Assembly (NCBI RefSeq): GCF_030944625.1
Contig: NZ_JAUSXY010000001.1
Span: 1,054,001-1,118,000, forward strand
DNA from: Arthrobacter sp. SLBN-112
GTDB lineage: Bacteria; Actinomycetota; Actinomycetes; Actinomycetales; Micrococcaceae
Length of the DNA stretch: 64,000 bases
Direction of reading: 5' to 3'
Positions 48,022-57,196 of this stretch are shown in pieces. The notes beneath the pieces were generated by a model. That model saw only the letters and a list, made by a program, of their open reading frames with translations, was not told the DNA's origin and made no database searches. Numbering within the stretch: position 1 is the stretch's first letter; each line of letters opens with the position of its first letter. Both the position numbers and the translations under genes were made by a program.

Positions 48022-51000
48022 ATGCCTCGTTTCGCACTGGACATCGAGTCCGTCCCCCGCCCCGCCCGTTCGCAGGAGCTCCTGGACGCCGTGAACCACC
48101 GGGTGGTCATCGCCGACGGCGCCATGGGCACCATGCTGCAAGGCCGGGACCTGCAGCTCGAAACGGACTTCCAGAACCTCGAAGGCTGCAACGAGATCCT
48201 CAACGACACCCGCCCGGACGTCATCGCGGACATCCACGACGCCTACTTCGCCACCGGCATCGACGCCGTGGAAACCAACACCTTCGGCGCCAACTGGTCC
48301 AACCTCTCCGACTACGGCATCGACGACCGCATCGAGGAACTCGCACTGAAGGGCGCCAAAATCGCCCGAGAACGTGCCGAAGCGGCAGAAGAAACAGACG
48401 GCCGGATGCGTTGGGTCCTCGGCTCCATGGGCCCCGGCACCAAGCTCCCCAGCCTGGGCCACACCAGCTACGACTACCTCAAGCAGACCTTCGCCCTCCA
48501 GGCCGAGGGCCTCATCGACGGCGGCGCGGACGCGTTCCTCATCGAAACCAGCCAGGACCTCCTGCAGACCAAGGCCGCCGTCAACGGCTGCAAGCAGGCC
48601 ATCGTCTCCAAGGGCATCCGGCTCCCCATCTTCGTCGAAGTAACGGTCGAAACCACCGGAACCATGCTCATGGGCTCCGAAATCGGCGCCGCGCTCACCG
48701 CCCTCGAACCGCTCGGCGTCGACGCCATCGGCCTGAACTGCGCCACCGGCCCGGACGAGATGAGCGAGCACCTCCGCCACCTCTCCAAACAGTCCTCCGT
48801 CGCCATCGCCTGCATGCCCAACGCCGGGCTGCCCATCCTCGGCGCCAACGGGGCGCACTACCCGCTTTCCCCCACCGAACTCGCCACCGCGCACGAACAA
48901 TTCGTCCGCGAATTCGGCCTGGGCCTGGTGGGCGGCTGCTGCGGTACGACGCCGGAACACATGGCCGCCGTCGTCGAACGTCTTGCCCCCTTCCGCACCC
49001 AAGCCGTGGCCGCCACGGACACGAACGCCAGCAACGGCAAAACAGCCCCCGCCCGCGTCCCCACCGAACGCGAAGCCGGCGTCGCCTCCCTCTACCAGCA
49101 CGTGAACTTCGACCAGGAGTCCGCCTACCTGGCCATCGGCGAACGCACCAACGCCAACGGCTCCAAGGCCTTCCGCCAGGCGATGCTCGAAGAGCGCTGG
49201 GACGACTGCGTGGACATCGCCCGCGAGCAGATCCGCGTAGGTGCCCACCTGCTGGACGTCTGCATCGACTACGTGGGTCGCGACGGCGTGGCCGACATCA
49301 AGGAGGTTGTGAGCCGTTTCGCGTCCGCCTCCACCCTCCCGCTGGTCATCGACTCCACCGAACCGCCTGTGTTGCAGGCCGGACTCGAACTCATCGGTGG
49401 CCGCCCGGTGGTCAACTCCGTCAACTACGAGGACGGCGACGGCCCCAACAGCCGCTTCGCCCGCATCATGCCGCTGGTCAAGGAACACGGCACCGCCGTG
49501 ATCGCCCTGACCATCGACGAACAGGGCCAGGCCCGCACCACCGACGGCAAGGTAGCCATCGCGTCGCGCCTGGTCGACTCCCTGGTGGGCGAGTGGGGCA
49601 TGCGCGTCGAGGACATCATCGTGGACTGCCTCACCTTCCCGGTCGCCACCGGCCAGGAGGAAACCCGCCGCGACGGCATCGAAACCATCGAGGCCATCCG
49701 CCAGATCACCGCCAAGTACCCGGGCATCAACACCACGCTCGGCGTCTCCAACGTCTCCTTCGGCCTCAACCCGGCAGCCCGCATCGTCCTGAACTCCGTG
49801 TTCCTGCACGAAGCCGTCCAGGCAGGCCTGACCAGCGGCATCATCGACGCCGCCAAGATCGTCCCGCTCGCCTCCCTCCCTGAAGAACAGCGCAAGGTGG
49901 CCCTGGACCTCGTCTACGACCGCCGCGAATACGACGCCGACGGCAACACCACCTACGACCCCCTCGCCAGCATGCTGGACCTCTTCGCCGGCGTCGACAC
50001 CGCAGCACTGAAGGACCAGCGCGCCGCCGAACTCGCCGCCCTGCCCACCGGCGCCCGCCTGGAACGCCGCATCATCGACGGCGAAGGCAAGGGCCTCGAG
50101 GAGGACCTGGACCTGGCCCGCAGCGAAGGCATGACCCCGCTGGGCATCATCAACGACCACCTGCTCGAGGGCATGAAAGTGGTGGGCGAACGCTTCGGCG
50201 CCGGCGAAATGCAGCTGCCGTTCGTGCTGCAGTCCGCCGAGGTCATGAAGAACGCCGTGGCCCTCCTCGAGCCGCACATGGAAAAGGCGGATTCTTCCGG
50301 CAAGGGCACCATGGTGATCGCCACCGTCCGCGGCGACGTGCATGACATCGGCAAGAACCTGGTGGACATCATCCTCACCAACAACGGCTACAAGGTAGTC
50401 AATATCGGCATCAAGCAGGGCATCGCCGAGATCATCGCCGCCGCGGAGGAACACGACGCCGACGTAATCGGCATGTCCGGGCTGCTGGTGAAATCCACTG
50501 TGGTGATGAAGGAAAACCTCGCCGAGCTGCAGACGCGCGGCCTGGCCAAGAGGTGGCCTGTCATCCTGGGCGGCGCCGCCCTGACCCGCGCCTACGTGGA
50601 GCAGGACCTGGCGGAGCAGTTCGAGGGCACCGTCAGGTACGCCAAGGACGCCTTCGAGGGCCTTGCGCTCATGGAACCGCTGGTGCGCGTGGCCCGCGGT
50701 GAGGACCCGGACTCCGTGGGCCTGCCGCCGCTGAAGAAGCGCATCCACAAGGGCGGCCCGAAATTCACCATCACCGAGCCTGAGGCGATGCCCGGCCGGT
50801 CCGACGTCGCCACCGACAACCCTGTCCCCGCCCCGCCGTTCTGGGGCACCCGGATCGTCCGCGGCGTCTCGCTCCACGACTACGCCGCCTTCCTGGACGA
50901 GCGCGCCACGTTCATGGGGCAGTGGGGCCTCAAACCCGGCCGCGGCGAGGACGGCGCCTCCTACGAGGAACTGGTGGAGACCGAAGGCCGGCCGCGGCTG

Positions 51001-51684
51001 CGCTACTGGCTGGACCGCATCCTGGGCGAGGGCATGCTGGACGCCTCGGTGGCCTACGGCTACTTCCCCGTGGTCTCCGAAGGGGAACAGGTGGTGGTGC
51101 TGCACCACGGCGAGGATCCCGACGGCGTCCTGGGCCAGGCGGGCCTGCTCGCCCCCGACGGTGGTTCAGGCGGTCCGATCGGCACGGACAGGCTGCGCTT
51201 CAACTTCCCGCGCCAGCGCCGCGACCGGCACCTGTGCCTGGCCGACTTCGTGAAGTCGCGGGAATCCGGGCAGATTGACGTGCTGCCAGTGCAGCTGGTC
51301 ACCGCCGGCTCCAAGATCGAAGAGTTCACCTCCAAGATGTTCGCGGCCAACCAGTACCGCGACTACTACGAACTCAACGGCCTGGTCATGCAGCTCACCG
51401 AGGCGCTCGCCGAATTCTGGCACGCCCGGATCCGCAAGGAGCTCGGCTTCGCGGCCGAGGAGCCCAAGGACACGGCAGGGTACTTCAAGCTTGACTACCG
51501 CGGCGCCCGGTTCTCGCTCGGCTACCCCGCCTGCCCGGACATGGAGGACCGCCGCAAGGTCACCGAGCTGCTGAAGCCCGAGCGCATGGGCGTGGTCCTG
51601 AGCGATGAGCTGATGCTGCACCCCGAACAGTCCACCGACGCGTTCGTGTTCCACCACCCGGAGGCCAAGTACTTCAAGGTGTGA
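48022..51684 (+). CDS. metH: Cobalamin-dependent methionine synthase MetH
   Basis: 1220 aa. Homocysteine domain with zinc-site GGCCGT at 304-309 and the partner Cys in GLNCATGP, a pterin-binding domain (IGERTNANGSKAFR), a B12-binding domain with D772-V-H774-D-I-G, and the C-terminal AdoMet activation domain ending in DAFVFHHPEAKYFKV. It transfers the methyl group of 5-methyl-THF to homocysteine via methylcobalamin. No cobalamin riboswitch is visible in the 96 bp upstream. The last 69 coding bases plus the stop are duplicated 709 bp downstream. A putative B12 transporter is encoded nearby. Confidence 0.97.
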   Translation: MPRFALDIESVPRPARSQELLDAVNHRVVIADGAMGTMLQGRDLQLETDFQNLEGCNEILNDTRPDVIADIHDAYFATGIDAVETNTFGANWSNLSDYGIDDRIEELALKGAKIARERAEAAEETDGRMRWVLGSMGPGTKLPSLGHTSYDYLKQTFALQAEGLIDGGADAFLIETSQDLLQTKAAVNGCKQAIVSKGIRLPIFVEVTVETTGTMLMGSEIGAALTALEPLGVDAIGLNCATGPDEMSEHLRHLSKQSSVAIACMPNAGLPILGANGAHYPLSPTELATAHEQFVREFGLGLVGGCCGTTPEHMAAVVERLAPFRTQAVAATDTNASNGKTAPARVPTEREAGVASLYQHVNFDQESAYLAIGERTNANGSKAFRQAMLEERWDDCVDIAREQIRVGAHLLDVCIDYVGRDGVADIKEVVSRFASASTLPLVIDSTEPPVLQAGLELIGGRPVVNSVNYEDGDGPNSRFARIMPLVKEHGTAVIALTIDEQGQARTTDGKVAIASRLVDSLVGEWGMRVEDIIVDCLTFPVATGQEETRRDGIETIEAIRQITAKYPGINTTLGVSNVSFGLNPAARIVLNSVFLHEAVQAGLTSGIIDAAKIVPLASLPEEQRKVALDLVYDRREYDADGNTTYDPLASMLDLFAGVDTAALKDQRAAELAALPTGARLERRIIDGEGKGLEEDLDLARSEGMTPLGIINDHLLEGMKVVGERFGAGEMQLPFVLQSAEVMKNAVALLEPHMEKADSSGKGTMVIATVRGDVHDIGKNLVDIILTNNGYKVVNIGIKQGIAEIIAAAEEHDADVIGMSGLLVKSTVVMKENLAELQTRGLAKRWPVILGGAALTRAYVEQDLAEQFEGTVRYAKDAFEGLALMEPLVRVARGEDPDSVGLPPLKKRIHKGGPKFTITEPEAMPGRSDVATDNPVPAPPFWGTRIVRGVSLHDYAAFLDERATFMGQWGLKPGRGEDGASYEELVETEGRPRLRYWLDRILGEGMLDASVAYGYFPVVSEGEQVVVLHHGEDPDGVLGQAGLLAPDGGSGGPIGTDRLRFNFPRQRRDRHLCLADFVKSRESGQIDVLPVQLVTAGSKIEEFTSKMFAANQYRDYYELNGLVMQLTEALAEFWHARIRKELGFAAEEPKDTAGYFKLDYRGARFSLGYPACPDMEDRRKVTELLKPERMGVVLSDELMLHPEQSTDAFVFHHPEAKYFKV

Positions 51685-51690
51685 GCTGGT
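51616..51690 (+). repeat. Direct repeat, copy 1: 3' end of metH
   Basis: 75 bp from CTGCACCCCGA through the metH stop to GAGCTGGT. It matches 52325-52399 at 73 of 75 positions. Confidence 0.95.
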
Positions 51691-51702: not shown

Positions 51703-52137
51703 TCAATGCTGCCCGAACCGCGCCCGGGCAGTTCGAGCGGATGTGCCGAGGGCGGCACCGATAACCTCCCACGAGTCTCCTTTCGCGCGGGCGGCGCTGA
51801 CGGCTGCGTCCAGCTCGGCTGCGGCTTTCGCGGCAGCCGTACGGGCAGCGGAGATCCGGCGGAAGTCCGCGGCCTCCCTGTCCACAGGAGGAGCCGGGCT
51901 CAGGCGAAGGAGCGTGCCATCCACCCGCAGCGGCGCGGTTAGGTGCTCGAGGTGCAGGACGTAACCTTCTTCGGGCGCGCGCTGAATGTAGAGGGTGAGG
52001 ACGGCCTTTCCCTCACCGTCATCAAAGTCCACTTTTCCGTAGCTCTCGCTGGGGCCAACAGGCCACGGGCGCGGCTTCAACCGCCAACCAGCTTCGTAAT
52101 GCGTCGGCTCGTAGGTTGGTGCTTCGTGAGGGGTCAT
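51703..52137 (-). CDS. Small protein with C-terminal helix-turn-helix
   Basis: 144 aa. The N-terminal 70 residues form a predicted beta-rich module (GKVDFDDGEGKAVLTLYIQR, GYVLHLEHLTAPLRVDG). A long Ala-rich helix leads to a C-terminal HTH (SWEVIGAALGTSARTARARFG as SWEVIGAALG and TSARTARARFG). GAAGGAG precedes the ATG by about ten bases. It is the only gene in the 634 bp between the two copies of the metH 3' repeat, so it may have arrived with that insertion. Function unknown. Confidence 0.7.
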   Translation of the reverse strand: MTPHEAPTYEPTHYEAGWRLKPRPWPVGPSESYGKVDFDDGEGKAVLTLYIQRAPEEGYVLHLEHLTAPLRVDGTLLRLSPAPPVDREAADFRRISAARTAAAKAAAELDAAVSAARAKGDSWEVIGAALGTSARTARARFGQH

Positions 52138-52324: not shown

Positions 52325-52399
52325 CTGCACCCCGAGCAGTCCACCGACGCGTTCGTGTTGCACCACCCGGAGGCCAAGTACTTCAAGGTGTGAGCTGGT
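52325..52399 (+). repeat. Direct repeat, copy 2: relic of the metH 3' end
   Basis: Same 75 bp with two differences from copy 1, one of which changes FVFHH to FVLHH. It overlaps the end of the ECF transporter gene (stop at 52383) on the other strand. Confidence 0.95.
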
Positions 52400-55244
52400 G
52401 CCGGTCCCTGGCGTGGGTGGACGGTGTCCGGGCGGGGCGGCCGTTTGCGCCGGAAGCCGGGCCAGCGACCGGCTTCACCCGCCGGAGCGCGGCCAGGACG
52501 GCCCGCCCCACCACCGCGATCCCGATGACCGTGGTGACGGCGCGGAGGGTGTCCCATCCCGCCGTCGACGTCAGCAGTGAGTAGAGCAGGAAGCTGCTGA
52601 GGTTGGTGCCCAGCGGTGCGCCCGGCACGTAGGAAATCCCGGTGCCGCTGCCCACCGCAAAGGGCCAGAACCACAGATTGAGCAGCAGGCCGAACACATA
52701 GGACGCCACCACGCCGTACCCGGCAAGCATCCACAGCTCTGCCCTGCCGCGCACCCGGCGGGGGAGCAGTCCGGCCCCCGCGCCCACCCACGCGCAGGCA
52801 AACATCTGGAACGGCGTCCACGGCCCGATCCCGCCCCACAGCACGCTGGAGACGGCGATGGTGGCCGCGCCGAGGAGCAGGCCAAACCGCGGACCGAACG
52901 CCCGGCCCGCCAGGACCAGCAGGATGAACACGGCTTCCACGCCGCCGACGCCGGTACTCGCCACCCGCACCGCCGAACCTACCGCTGCCAGGACGCCGAG
53001 CAACGCCACCGTGTGTGCCGAGCGGACTGAACCGTCCAGGGACACCACGACGGCGGCCGCGGCCAGGGGCGCGATGGCCAGGGCGGCGTACGGGGTGGCT
53101 GCAGCGGCGTCCTGCGGAAGTGCCGCGGCAAGCAGCGGCCAGCAGAAGGCCGCGAGGGCCAGCAGGTTTGCGGCTGCCAGGACTGCCAGCTCGGCTGCCC
53201 GCGGCATCCGGATACGGCGGCCCGGCTTCGCGCCGGGCAGGTCAGGCCGGTGCTCGATGGTCCGGGCCGGGGCCAGAGGTTGGGCTGCGGGAACGTCTGC
53301 TGACTCATCCGGACCGGCTGCCAGGGCGGAGGGCGCCACGCCGTCCCGCATCGGCAGGATCCGGGCCCCGAGCCGGTGCGCAAACTCGAGGTCGTGGGTG
53401 GCGAACAGGACCGCGACGCCCTCCGCGGCAGCGGCCCGCAGTGCTGCCGCGACCGCCGTCCGCGCGGTGGGATCGAGCCCGCGGGTGGGCTCATCGATCA
53501 GCAGCACTTGCGGCCGGTCCATGGTCTGCAGCGCGATGGCAAGGATCCTGCGCTCGCCGGCGGACAGGTCCCGGGGGTGTTCGTGCCCGATGGGCATGCT
53601 GACGTTGCCCCGGAGCCGGGCAAGCCGTGCTTCCGCCGTGCCGGGTGGAGGCTTCCCAGCGGGCTTTCCGCCAGAGCCTCCGCGCGTCTTTCCGCGCGCC
53701 AGGCGCCGCTCCGCCGCCCTCAACTCGGCGGCAACGGTGTCCCTGGTGAAGAGGTCGTCGGAGGCGTCCGGCACCAGGGCCACCCGGCCGCCGTCGTCCG
53801 TCCTTGCGGCGCTGGCGCCCTCACCCAGGGCCAGCGCCACCAGGAGGGACGACTTACCGGCCCCATTCGGGCCCACCAGCGCCACAATCTCGCCGGGGTG
53901 CAGGGCCAGGGATGCCTCCCGCACCAGGGGCGTGCCGCCGCCGTGCACGGCTAGGTTCGTGGCCGTAAGCACGGGTACGGTGTCCGCCAAAACTGGGGCA
54001 GGACCTTCAGCGGGATGCGCAGGAGCGGGAGAAGGCGCCGCGCCGGGCACCAGCGCGCCGCCCTCGAGGGTCCACCATGAACCGGCAACAGGGACCAGCG
54101 CTTCCGCCCGGTGCTCCGCCACGATCACGCACACACCGGAGTGGCGGGCGAGGCCGCTGAGCACGGCGATGACGCGGCGGCGCGCTGTGGCATCGAGGTC
54201 GGCCAGCGGCTCGTCCACCAGGAGCAGGACGGGATGGTCCACGACGGCGGCGGCGATGGCCACCAGCGTTGCCTCACCTGCCGACAGGGTGCTGACGTTC
54301 CGGTCCAGCAGTGCCGAGACCCCGATCCGCTCCGCCACCTCCAGCACCCGGGCCGTGGCGGCCGGCCGGGCCACGCCGCGCAGTTCCAGGGCCAGGCCAA
54401 TCTCGTCCCTGACCCGCGTGGTGGCAAAGGCCGCGCGGGGATTCTGCAGGACCACCCCGGTCAGGCGGGCCGTGTCGCGCGGCGGGGCAGCGGCACGGTC
54501 CACGCCGGCCACGCGCACCGTGCCGGAGATGCCACCGCCGTCGACATGCGAGAGCAGCCCGGCGACGCCGCGCAGGATGGTGGACTTGCCGGAGCCCGTG
54601 GGACCGGTGATGACCGTGATGGATCCGGCGGGCGGCGTGAACCCGGCCGCGCGCACCTGCGCGCTGCCAATCCGGAACTGTGCGTCCCGGACCACGAGCG
54701 GCGGGGCGCTGCCGGAAACCGATTGGGGTGCGGGCCGGCCAGCGAATCCGCGCAACTCCAGGGCCGCGGCAACCCGGCCCGCATGCTCAAGGGTGCGCTC
54801 CAGCACAGGAACCAGGGCACGGGGTCCGAAGCGTTCGCCCCGCAACCGGAAGGCCAGGCGGACGGAGGCCACGGCGTCGGACAGGGCCGGGAGCGCCGCC
54901 CATGCCACCACCAGCACCCGGGCCACGCCCTGCAGTGGGCCGCCCCGGGCCAGCCGGACGAAGCCGCGGGACACATCAACCCACGCGTTGAGCAGCCCGA
55001 AGCCGAGGATCAGCCCGGCTATGGGCAGGGCGGACAGCACCGCCTGCCAGAGACCGGGCGCCGTAACCGGGCCGAGGAGGACCACATGCGCGTAGGGCGC
55101 GGGAAGCCGGACCTGCGGCATGGCCAGCAGGAGCGGCTCACCGATGCCCGCCCCGTTGAACAGGACTCGGTAGATGACCCGCGCCGCGATGAAGACGGCG
55201 GCGAGGGCCGCCGCCGCCCGTAACGGCGCGGGCCGGAAGGTCAT
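52383..55244 (-). CDS. Single-chain ECF vitamin transporter (T, A, A' and S modules fused)
   Basis: 953 aa. Residues 1-175 are an EcfT-like membrane domain with the ATPase-coupling motif ALELRGF (161-167). The first ATPase has Walker A GPTGSGKST (214-222), VLQNP (265-269) and LSAGE (320-324). The second has GPNGAGKSS (458-466), LSAGERRIL and LLIDEPTRGLD. Residues from about 690 form a multi-helix S-component-like domain (AAELAVLAAANLLALAAFCW, FGLLLGAATIAVSSVLWGGI, YGVVASYVFGLLLNLWFWPF). These four parts are normally separate genes. The S part defines the vitamin; being next to a DUF4430-like lipoprotein and near metH, cobalamin is the best guess. Confidence 0.88.
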   Translation of the reverse strand: MTFRPAPLRAAAALAAVFIAARVIYRVLFNGAGIGEPLLLAMPQVRLPAPYAHVVLLGPVTAPGLWQAVLSALPIAGLILGFGLLNAWVDVSRGFVRLARGGPLQGVARVLVVAWAALPALSDAVASVRLAFRLRGERFGPRALVPVLERTLEHAGRVAAALELRGFAGRPAPQSVSGSAPPLVVRDAQFRIGSAQVRAAGFTPPAGSITVITGPTGSGKSTILRGVAGLLSHVDGGGISGTVRVAGVDRAAAPPRDTARLTGVVLQNPRAAFATTRVRDEIGLALELRGVARPAATARVLEVAERIGVSALLDRNVSTLSAGEATLVAIAAAVVDHPVLLLVDEPLADLDATARRRVIAVLSGLARHSGVCVIVAEHRAEALVPVAGSWWTLEGGALVPGAAPSPAPAHPAEGPAPVLADTVPVLTATNLAVHGGGTPLVREASLALHPGEIVALVGPNGAGKSSLLVALALGEGASAARTDDGGRVALVPDASDDLFTRDTVAAELRAAERRLARGKTRGGSGGKPAGKPPPGTAEARLARLRGNVSMPIGHEHPRDLSAGERRILAIALQTMDRPQVLLIDEPTRGLDPTARTAVAAALRAAAAEGVAVLFATHDLEFAHRLGARILPMRDGVAPSALAAGPDESADVPAAQPLAPARTIEHRPDLPGAKPGRRIRMPRAAELAVLAAANLLALAAFCWPLLAAALPQDAAAATPYAALAIAPLAAAAVVVSLDGSVRSAHTVALLGVLAAVGSAVRVASTGVGGVEAVFILLVLAGRAFGPRFGLLLGAATIAVSSVLWGGIGPWTPFQMFACAWVGAGAGLLPRRVRGRAELWMLAGYGVVASYVFGLLLNLWFWPFAVGSGTGISYVPGAPLGTNLSSFLLYSLLTSTAGWDTLRAVTTVIGIAVVGRAVLAALRRVKPVAGPASGANGRPARTPSTHARDRHQLTP

Positions 55245-55804
55245 GACGCGGGTGCTGCCGGTTCGTTGTCCACGGTGTAGAGCAGTTCAAGGCTCTCGCC
55301 GGGGCTGAGCTTGAGGCTGTCCAGGCCTTCCTGCGCGTAGGCCCACGTGCCGGCGGCGGGCTTCACCCAGAGGGCCCAATAAGAGACCGTGTTTTTGTCA
55401 TCGCACGCTTCGCGGGTAGTGCCGCCCTTGTGCTTGATGTCGAAGTCCGCAGCGGGCACGCCGTTGACGCGGCACGCGAAGCTCGTGGGGTACTTGGCGG
55501 TGCCCTCGATCTTCACGTCGGCTTTGCTCAGCACGTCCGATGCCAGAGTGGGTCCGTCCGCGGGCACGCAGGTGGAGGTGTCGGCGGCAGCTTGCTTCAG
55601 GGAGGCGGAATCCACCACGACCTTCACCCCGGTGCAGGGCCCGGCGGAGGCAGAGGCGCTGGCTGATGCCGAGGCGGAAGCGGATGCGGATGCGGAGGGA
55701 GCGGACTGGGTGGCGGCCGGCGTGGAGCAGGCGGCGAGGGTCAGCAGGAGGCCGGCGGCGGCGAGGGAGCTCGCGGCGGCGGTGCGGGTCTTAGTCAATG
55801 TCAC
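55241..55804 (-). CDS. DUF4430-like (transcobalamin C-terminal-like) lipoprotein with Ser-Ala linker
   Basis: 187 aa. Lipobox LAAC (LTLAACSTPA), a (Ser-Ala)n linker of about 20 residues (built from tandem hexamer-like DNA), then a compact domain with two probable disulfide Cys pairs. The order P-T-L-x-x-D-V-L, FACRVNGVPA, YWALWVKPAAGTWAYAQ, LKLSPGESLELLY follows the DUF4430 pattern, which resembles the C-terminal domain of transcobalamin/intrinsic factor. It is coupled to the ECF gene by ATGA. It probably presents a ligand, perhaps vitamin B12, to the transporter (inference). Confidence 0.75.
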   Translation of the reverse strand: MTLTKTRTAAASSLAAAGLLLTLAACSTPAATQSAPSASASASASASASASASAGPCTGVKVVVDSASLKQAAADTSTCVPADGPTLASDVLSKADVKIEGTAKYPTSFACRVNGVPAADFDIKHKGGTTREACDDKNTVSYWALWVKPAAGTWAYAQEGLDSLKLSPGESLELLYTVDNEPAAPAS

Positions 55805-55915
55805 CTGTCAAGGGTAGGGCGTTGCTGCCCGGAGCGGGATGCTGCCGCGTTGTATGACGTCAGGTCTCCACTAGAACCACTATCAGTCGGGCTGTCTCCC
55901 GGCTACTCTCGAGAC

Positions 55916-57196
55916 ATGTGCCCAGCGACACAATGGCTGGCCCCTGCTGATGAGGCGAACCTGGTGCTTGACCACGCCGGCCAGGTCAACGTGTTCCTCG
56001 TCGCTGCGCTGCTCGCGCCCGGAGGCTTCCTGGCTCCGGACGGCACGGCAGACATCGCAGCGCTGAGGGCGGTCCTCCGTGAGCGGATTGCGGAGTTGCC
56101 GGCACTCCGCAAAAGCGCCGTCCAGTCGGGCCGTCGGCACCACTGGATTGAAACCATTCCGGACGTCGAGCACCACATCCGCGCCGTAGAGCCCGTGGAT
56201 GGCCTTACAGGACTTGAGGACAGATGCGCCGAACTTATGGGGCAGCCGCTGGCAGGGGACCGTCCGTTGTGGGAGATCCTGGTGGTACCGGGTGCCACAG
56301 CGGGAGGACTTGGCGTCGTGTTGCGTATCCATCACGCGGTGGCCGACGGGATGACGGCGGCGCTCATCGTGCAGCGGCTTTTCGATCCCGGCGAACCGGG
56401 GGAGAGCCCCTCGAACCAGCCCCTTATGCGCCGGCCGACGGAGGCTCCCCGGCACCATCCCCGGAACGATCCCCGCAGCACACTTCGTCGGATTGGGACG
56501 GGGCTTAGCCGCATCCGCAAGACTTTATGGGGCCAGGGCGTGGGCCGCACGATGCTGCTGGGTGAGCGCAGCGCCCACCACGGCGTCGCTTTCCTGCGGA
56601 CGGAAATCGAAGCCCTCGAAGCGGCGGTGCGCCCGCGGGGTGCCACCGTCAACGATGCACTGCTTGCTGCGTCGGCGGCCGGCTTCCGGGCAGCTTTGTT
56701 GGCGGCCGGTGAACCGGTTCCGTCTTGGTTGCCGGTCTCGGAACCGGTGGCTCTGCGGCGCCGCGGGACTGCGGGGAACCAGGTGGGAGTCATGCTGGTG
56801 CGGCTGCCACTCGGCGAGCCAGACCCGGATGAGCGCTTGCGGCTCATCGGTGCCCAGACGCGTGACGAGAAGCTGCGGGCGAGGGACCAGGGCACCCTGG
56901 AGTTCATGCGCGGCCCGATCGGCGCGCGCATCATGGACAGCCTCGCCAGACGGCAGCATCTGGTGGGCGGGTTCGTCACCAACGTGCCGGGTACGAAAGG
57001 AGCTTTTCTCCTCGCGGGGGCTCCGGTCACCGCGCTCTGGCCGGTTGCGGTGCTTGCCGGCAATGTGCGGCTCGGCGTCGCTGCGGTCTCCTACGCCGGC
57101 AACCTGTGTTGCGGCATCCACTTCGATGCCTCGAATGTCCCAGGCGATGTGTTTGCGCAGGCCATGGGGGAGGAGCTGGCACGTCTGGGCAGGTGA
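55916..57196 (+). CDS. WS/DGAT-family O-acyltransferase
   Basis: 426 aa from ATG 55916 (MCPATQWLAPADEANL). The active-site motif HHAVADG lies at 139-145, and a PLWEILVV block and the C-terminal NVPG (VTNVPGTKGAFLLAG) are family features. Members esterify fatty alcohols or diacylglycerols with acyl-CoA to make wax esters or triacylglycerol stores. An upstream in-frame ATG at 55850 has no ribosome site and is not used. Monocistronic; a long hairpin follows. Confidence 0.9.
   Translation: MCPATQWLAPADEANLVLDHAGQVNVFLVAALLAPGGFLAPDGTADIAALRAVLRERIAELPALRKSAVQSGRRHHWIETIPDVEHHIRAVEPVDGLTGLEDRCAELMGQPLAGDRPLWEILVVPGATAGGLGVVLRIHHAVADGMTAALIVQRLFDPGEPGESPSNQPLMRRPTEAPRHHPRNDPRSTLRRIGTGLSRIRKTLWGQGVGRTMLLGERSAHHGVAFLRTEIEALEAAVRPRGATVNDALLAASAAGFRAALLAAGEPVPSWLPVSEPVALRRRGTAGNQVGVMLVRLPLGEPDPDERLRLIGAQTRDEKLRARDQGTLEFMRGPIGARIMDSLARRQHLVGGFVTNVPGTKGAFLLAGAPVTALWPVAVLAGNVRLGVAAVSYAGNLCCGIHFDASNVPGDVFAQAMGEELARLGR

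Follow-up and report, generated by a model that had tools for sequence, protein, structure and literature searches.

A lipoprotein gene and a single-chain ECF transporter

In Arthrobacter sp. SLBN-112 (Actinomycetota; Micrococcaceae), two overlapping minus-strand genes encode a lipoprotein of 187 amino acids and an energy-coupling factor (ECF) transporter of 953 amino acids, which together very probably import vitamin B12 or a close corrinoid. The genes lie in a window of 64,000 nt, by which we mean the whole stretch of DNA analysed (assembly GCF_030944625.1, contig NZ_JAUSXY010000001.1, positions 1,054,001-1,118,000). The lipoprotein gene comes first, and its stop codon shares letters with the start codon of the longer chain in an ATGA overlap. 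The transporter carries in one polypeptide the four modules of an ECF system, namely T (EcfT), two ATPases (A and A') and an S-component. The features of the two genes are as follows.

55241..55804, minus strand: lipoprotein gene, 187 amino acids, GTG start, lipobox LTLAAC at C26; an orthologue lies directly upstream of the fusion in 80/80 loci
55634..55726, minus strand: flexible Ser/Ala-rich tether, residues 27-57, seen in the sequence and mostly of low predicted local distance difference test (pLDDT) score in the model
55262..55633, minus strand: mature domain of the lipoprotein, residues 58-181, with a modelled transcobalamin/intrinsic factor beta-domain fold
52383..55244, minus strand: single-chain ECF transporter T-A-A'-S, 953 amino acids, from sequence, profile matches and relatives
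54705..55244, minus strand: trimmed EcfT module, residues 1-180, from a PF02361 match below the cut-off and alignment to separate T frames
54045..54698, minus strand: first ATPase (A), about residues 183-400, from PF00005 and motifs
53325..53966, minus strand: second ATPase (A'), about residues 427-640, from PF00005 and motifs
53208..53324, minus strand: Pro/Ala-rich A'-S linker, about residues 641-679 (about 40 residues), borders drawn by eye on the sequence
52386..53207, minus strand: S-component module, residues 680-953, two extra N-terminal helices followed by the S-component core (about 740-924)

The first-pass annotation had described a 953-residue chain with EcfT, two ATPases and an S module that overlaps by ATGA a lipoprotein with a Ser/Ala tether, and the chain, the overlap, the coordinates and the lengths all proved exact. 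Both ATPases are certain: PF00005 matches two stretches of the chain with 131.8 bits (Pfam), and each ATPase has a Walker A motif (residues 214 and 458), an LSAGE motif (320 and 560) and a Walker B motif (341 and 581). With motif patterns in consensus form, all six strict patterns were present in 58 of the 80 orthologues described below, and the remaining 22 deviate in at least one.

The EcfT module scores 18.9 bits with CbiQ/PF02361 (cut-off 25) over profile positions 47-211 of 216, and in 16 of 20 distant loci a separate T frame shows BLAST similarity to it. The T frame begins 49-105 residues earlier than the window module in 14 of these 16, with a predicted membrane helix in the additional part; in L156 it begins only 18 residues earlier, and the L163 frame is overlong (886 residues), so that its offset is not clear. 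The separate T frames are 354-446 residues long in the other 15, lengths that are upper bounds because the first possible start codons were used, compared with about 180 residues in the window, where T is about half as long. The window module is also without the hydrophobic C-terminal extension found on the two distant T frames inspected. As judged from these alignments, the module is probably a genuine but trimmed T.

The S module has, in the structure model, the fold of an S-component. Searched alone, it gave no Pfam match with an E value of 0.01 or less. The S families of other substrates all stayed under their cut-offs: closest came the riboflavin-named PF07155, found on the S stretch in a whole-genome search (23.3 bits, cut-off 26.7), and the FolT subfamily model of NCBIfam (16.6 bits, cut-off 60). 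The FolT model matches 17 and PF07155 matches 12 of 35 aligned S-family members (E up to 0.01). A profile search found a single locus of the fused-S family in the genome.

For the lipoprotein, recognition from sequence alone failed and a structure model settled the fold. The protein is not recognised by NCBIfam, the Pfam DUF4430 profile (PF14478) matches neither it nor its 31 aligned relatives, and a whole-genome search with that profile gave two weak matches only, both elsewhere. Eight lipoprotein-like proteins from distant operons also had no DUF4430 match in Pfam. A profile search of PDB sequences returned matches that resemble signal peptides or chance and were discarded. In the model, the mature domain adopts the transcobalamin beta-domain fold, and the 15 best VIA matches are all transcobalamin, haptocorrin, intrinsic factor or RUMGNA_00854, at 16-22% identity. 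The domain had been annotated as DUF4430-like and transcobalamin-like; the fold is borne out by the model, the Pfam profile match is not. Conserved cysteines lie within the mature domain at positions 79, 111 and 134, and C57 immediately precedes it.

Among the 120 lipoprotein relatives listed, most are called hypothetical, a few "DUF4430 domain-containing" and one YbaY, and the 120 chain relatives listed are mostly named ATP-binding cassette or energy-coupling factor ATP-binding protein, with one thiamine-type ATPase. Six of the listed lipoprotein relatives (P0073, P0082, P0107, P0109, P0116 and P0121) carry a precomputed PF28005.1 assignment, possibly a newer family covering the lipoprotein; the Pfam copy used here does not assign it to them.

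Fused loci beside metH and their riboswitch-linked relatives

A scan of genome contigs yielded 149 relatives, and our counts rest on the best 80 loci, from Arthrobacter, Pseudarthrobacter, Microbacterium and Agromyces. The lipoprotein orthologue and the fused chain occur together in all 80, with the lipoprotein directly upstream, and the lipoprotein gene ends in ATGA (60/80) or GTGA (16/80), as in overlapping genes. Two loci (L052, L055) have a split frame for the long chain, and in L065 this frame leaves its contig. Because the pair recurs in 80 orthologous loci, we rejected an assembly artefact or chance.

On the opposite strand, three features belong to the cobalamin-dependent methionine synthase gene metH and its tail.

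48022..51684, plus strand: metH, convergent neighbour of the fusion
51616..51690, plus strand: 3' end of metH, first copy of a 75-bp direct repeat (copies 97.3% identical)
52325..52399, plus strand: second copy of the metH-tail repeat, containing the stop codon of the ECF fusion

The neighbour on this side could be judged in 77 loci, as L004, L057 and L065 end too early. Of the 77, 59 have a convergent metH no more than 8 kb away, comprising 40/58 loci of the Arthrobacter group and 19/19 of Microbacterium and Agromyces; in three of the 59 (L029, L033, L035) metH is matched only in part, where the fetched stretch ends. Over these 59 loci, the gap between metH and the ECF gene ranges from -4 to 7841 bp. 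In 17 loci the 3' ends of the two reading frames overlap, by 11 bp including the stop codons in the 13 that were paired. The 3' end of metH seems to be a recurrent insertion spot. The repeat copies of the window flank about 630 bp with a small helix-turn-helix-like open reading frame (51703-52137, minus strand), and because the metH and ECF frames overlap directly in 17 relatives, this segment resembles an insertion in which the metH tail was duplicated. Similar metH-tail repeats are present in L032 and L036.

The S domain is more widely distributed than the fusion. Of 394 genomes drawn from the class, 210 have a match to a profile built on the S domain of the fusions, and this profile finds the S proteins of all 20 distant loci (E 2.9e-57 to 4.3e-79; 38-51% identity to the window). 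In these loci S and AA' are in different frames (20/20), T is a further frame in 16 and a lipoprotein relative is present in 15, with no metH match in any of the 20 14-kb stretches. Six of the operons (L155, L156, L157, L158, L161, L163) have two lipoprotein-like frames, and in L157 and L158 another cobalamin riboswitch lies downstream of S.

Matches to the cobalamin riboswitch family RF00174 (E up to 0.001), in the sense orientation and upstream of S, were found in all 20 genomes of a first batch (3.2-7.5 kb) and in 20 of 24 genomes of a second (3.0-6.7 kb). The genomes share ancestry, so that a Fisher test on these counts does not give a strict probability. From match counts and genome sizes, chance would account for 0.08 of the first 20 loci. 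The first batch was hand-picked for breadth, partly from genomes with lipoprotein-profile matches, and the second took every fourth S place after the 30 with loci, skipping those already used. The second-batch misses are G202, G092, G269 and G253, the last a fragmented genome (130 contigs, 75% complete); in G332 one S place is too near the contig start, and the genome was counted through its second locus. In half of the second batch (12/24) the match upstream of S is the genome's only one. When the 14-kb stretches of the first 20 loci were scanned with all Rfam families at gathering score, 12 proved to have a cobalamin or adenosylcobalamin (AdoCbl) riboswitch, 10 of them in the sense of the operon. 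By profile similarity, we conclude that the window S domain belongs to the sequence family of riboswitch-linked actinobacterial B12-type S-components, and that the window system is a divergent relative rather than a riboswitch-controlled member of this group.

Probable import of B12 or a close corrinoid and competing explanations

With the anatomy, the ATPase motifs, both predicted folds, the gene pairing, the metH neighbourhood and the riboswitch matches of relatives computed here, we consider it very probable that the system imports B12 or a close corrinoid, the tethered beta domain capturing the ligand and the S domain carrying it across. The first-pass annotation had proposed a B12 importer, and the riboswitch matches upstream of relatives (40/44 genomes) support its proposal. 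The lipoprotein would stand outside the membrane on its Ser/Ala tether, where the beta domain would capture a corrinoid and hand it to the S domain of the fused transporter. Knowledge of the ECF family and the gene content suggest the later steps: ATP binding and hydrolysis at A and A', coupled via the short T, would topple S and release the corrinoid inside, where MetH could use it.

The genome search for PF02310 found no protein besides MetH, so that the genome has one B12 user of that type. No CbiC match was found in the genome, and the CobS match is marginal (23.6 bits, cut-off 23.2; positions 25-177 of 207), so that corrin-ring synthesis seems absent and, as far as these profiles indicate, the cell looks unable to make the ring.

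Several results count against B12 import. The genome also has the B12-independent metE, so B12 need not be essential, and the argument from metH, correctly placed as a convergent neighbour on the plus strand, is weaker than had been claimed. A metH within 8 kb is absent from 18 of the 58 Arthrobacter-group loci. Half of the 40 upstream RF00174 matches (20) are above the Rfam gathering score, and the other 20 are below it (24.0-31.2 bits, gathering score 31.5). With the best 72-150 first-look candidates scored per genome, RF00174 has no match in the genome of the window and none in 22 genomes of the window's family or of the Microbacterium-like family f4 (72 candidates scored each), 12 of which carry the S family; the window and eight related loci have no Rfam match at gathering score. 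It is as if the cobalamin riboswitches had been lost in both families. A branch of about 2.2 changes per site (Shimodaira-Hasegawa-like approximate likelihood ratio test, SH-aLRT, 100) separates the fused clade, together with three unfused neighbours, from the riboswitch-linked operons in a quick tree, and because this branch is long the substrate could have shifted. To these are added the PF07155 similarity of the S stretch and the missing PF14478 match of the lipoprotein.

A first alternative, which we regard as rather unlikely, is that the system imports a corrinoid precursor or analogue (cobinamide or other cobamides) for salvage and not cobalamin itself. The CobS match hints at late corrinoid assembly, and cobinamide is accepted by the transcobalamin beta domain (PMC5599065) and by ECF-CbrT (PMC5997447). 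However, the CobS match barely passes its cut-off and covers only part of the profile, and the neighbouring gene is a B12 user rather than a salvage enzyme.

We think it improbable that the fusion imports B12 while the lipoprotein acts as a regulator, sensor or assembly partner or serves another system. Lipoprotein relatives (E about 1e-35) do occur in two 1.2-Mb genomes (L167, L168) with no S, T, A or metH match in the surrounding 14 kb, and ECF transporters are described as having no classic binding protein (PMC7761784). Against such a role stand the co-occurrence with the fusion (80/80), the overlap-type gene ends (ATGA 60/80, GTGA 16/80) and a modelled fold that is that of a corrinoid binder.

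Slightly less probable again is that the S domain of the fused clade shifted to another small molecule (for example of methionine, folate or flavin metabolism), the metH link reflecting that or being incidental: the long branch, the lack of a riboswitch match in the fused clade and the weak FolT (16.6 bits) and PF07155 (23.3 bits) similarities would fit, but both similarities are under cut-off, each of the two models also hits further members of the aligned family (17/35 and 12/35), and the lipoprotein appears in the model to retain the transcobalamin beta fold.

Returning to import of B12 or a close corrinoid, the more specific proposal is tentative and falls a little short of an even chance: that an ECF transporter made as a single T-A-A'-S polypeptide, with S tethered throughout the cycle, has in the lipoprotein its dedicated extracytoplasmic binding protein.

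Origin and comparison with known systems

The system likely began as separate genes under a riboswitch; riboswitch loss, arrival beside metH and fusion of T to AA' would have followed, in any order, and the fusion of S would have come last. This path is suggested by the three unfused tree neighbours of the fused clade (L169, L170, L171), which are intermediate in that they have the lipoprotein and T fused to AA' but S as a gene of its own, again convergent with metH, and by the distant loci, which are unfused, riboswitch-linked and without metH. Because T is already trimmed in the T-AA' fusion of L170, the trimming may predate the S fusion. The tree groups family f4 with Microbacterium and Agromyces. 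In the quick S tree the Arthrobacter group (12 rows including the window) stands beside one Microbacterium (SH-aLRT 87), from which gene transfer from Microbacteriaceae to Arthrobacter is only a suggestion.

ECF-CbrT of Lactobacillus delbrueckii resembles the window system in its T, A, A' and S parts, its proposed substrate and its supply of B12-dependent enzymes (PMC5997447). In contrast to the four modules in one chain and the transcobalamin-like lipoprotein found here, its S is separate and shares a common ECF module with other S-components. The riboswitch-linked actinobacterial operons have the same S-domain profile family and group lipoprotein relative, T, AA' and S genes together, but with S and AA' in separate frames (20/20) and no metH (0/20), whereas the window system is fused, has no riboswitch match and is convergent with metH. 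Cobalamin transport has been proposed for acI ECF modules behind such riboswitches (PMC5301498), modules that may belong to this S family.

With transcobalamin, intrinsic factor, haptocorrin and RUMGNA_00854 (3U7Z) the lipoprotein would share the beta fold, as modelled; here, however, there is no alpha domain, the protein is a membrane-anchored lipoprotein and identity is 16-22%. BtuFCD offers a functional analogy in that it pairs a binding protein with an ATP-driven B12 importer (PMC5997447), as the window system would, but here the lipoprotein has the predicted fold of a transcobalamin beta domain and is joined to an importer of the ECF type; ECF-CbrT is itself called unrelated to BtuCDF in the same source. 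Fusion of the two ATPases alone is already known (PMC6828968). Titles and abstract openings of mostly non-subscription literature gave no prior description of a four-module single-chain ECF protein or of a transcobalamin-like ECF partner. The novelty lies in a chain of four modules with a trimmed T, in its transcobalamin-like partner and in a conserved position next to metH without riboswitch control.

Single-molecule data on ECF-CbrT suggest that S is expelled and re-associates during transport, a model that its authors call contentious (PMC12075633; see also PMC10368641). With an A'-S linker of about 40 residues, S release from the motor cannot be complete in one chain, and because a tethered S can undock but can neither diffuse off nor be exchanged, this natural single chain can test the need for full release. 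The transcobalamin-like lipoprotein would give a binding protein to a class described as without a classic one (PMC7761784). If true, a single B12 importer would bend two textbook rules of the ECF class, that there is no binding protein and that S leaves the motor, and bacteria would have a counterpart, with the same job, to the B12-holding half of animal transcobalamin. The modelled fold would tie B12 capture in soil Actinobacteria to the animal B12 carriers, and the proposed system gives a testable function to genes that databases label hypothetical protein or ATP-binding cassette protein.

The divergent neighbour of the lipoprotein gene (55850-57196, plus strand), for which no B12 link was seen, is a homologue of wax ester synthase/diacylglycerol acyltransferase (PF03007, PF06974).

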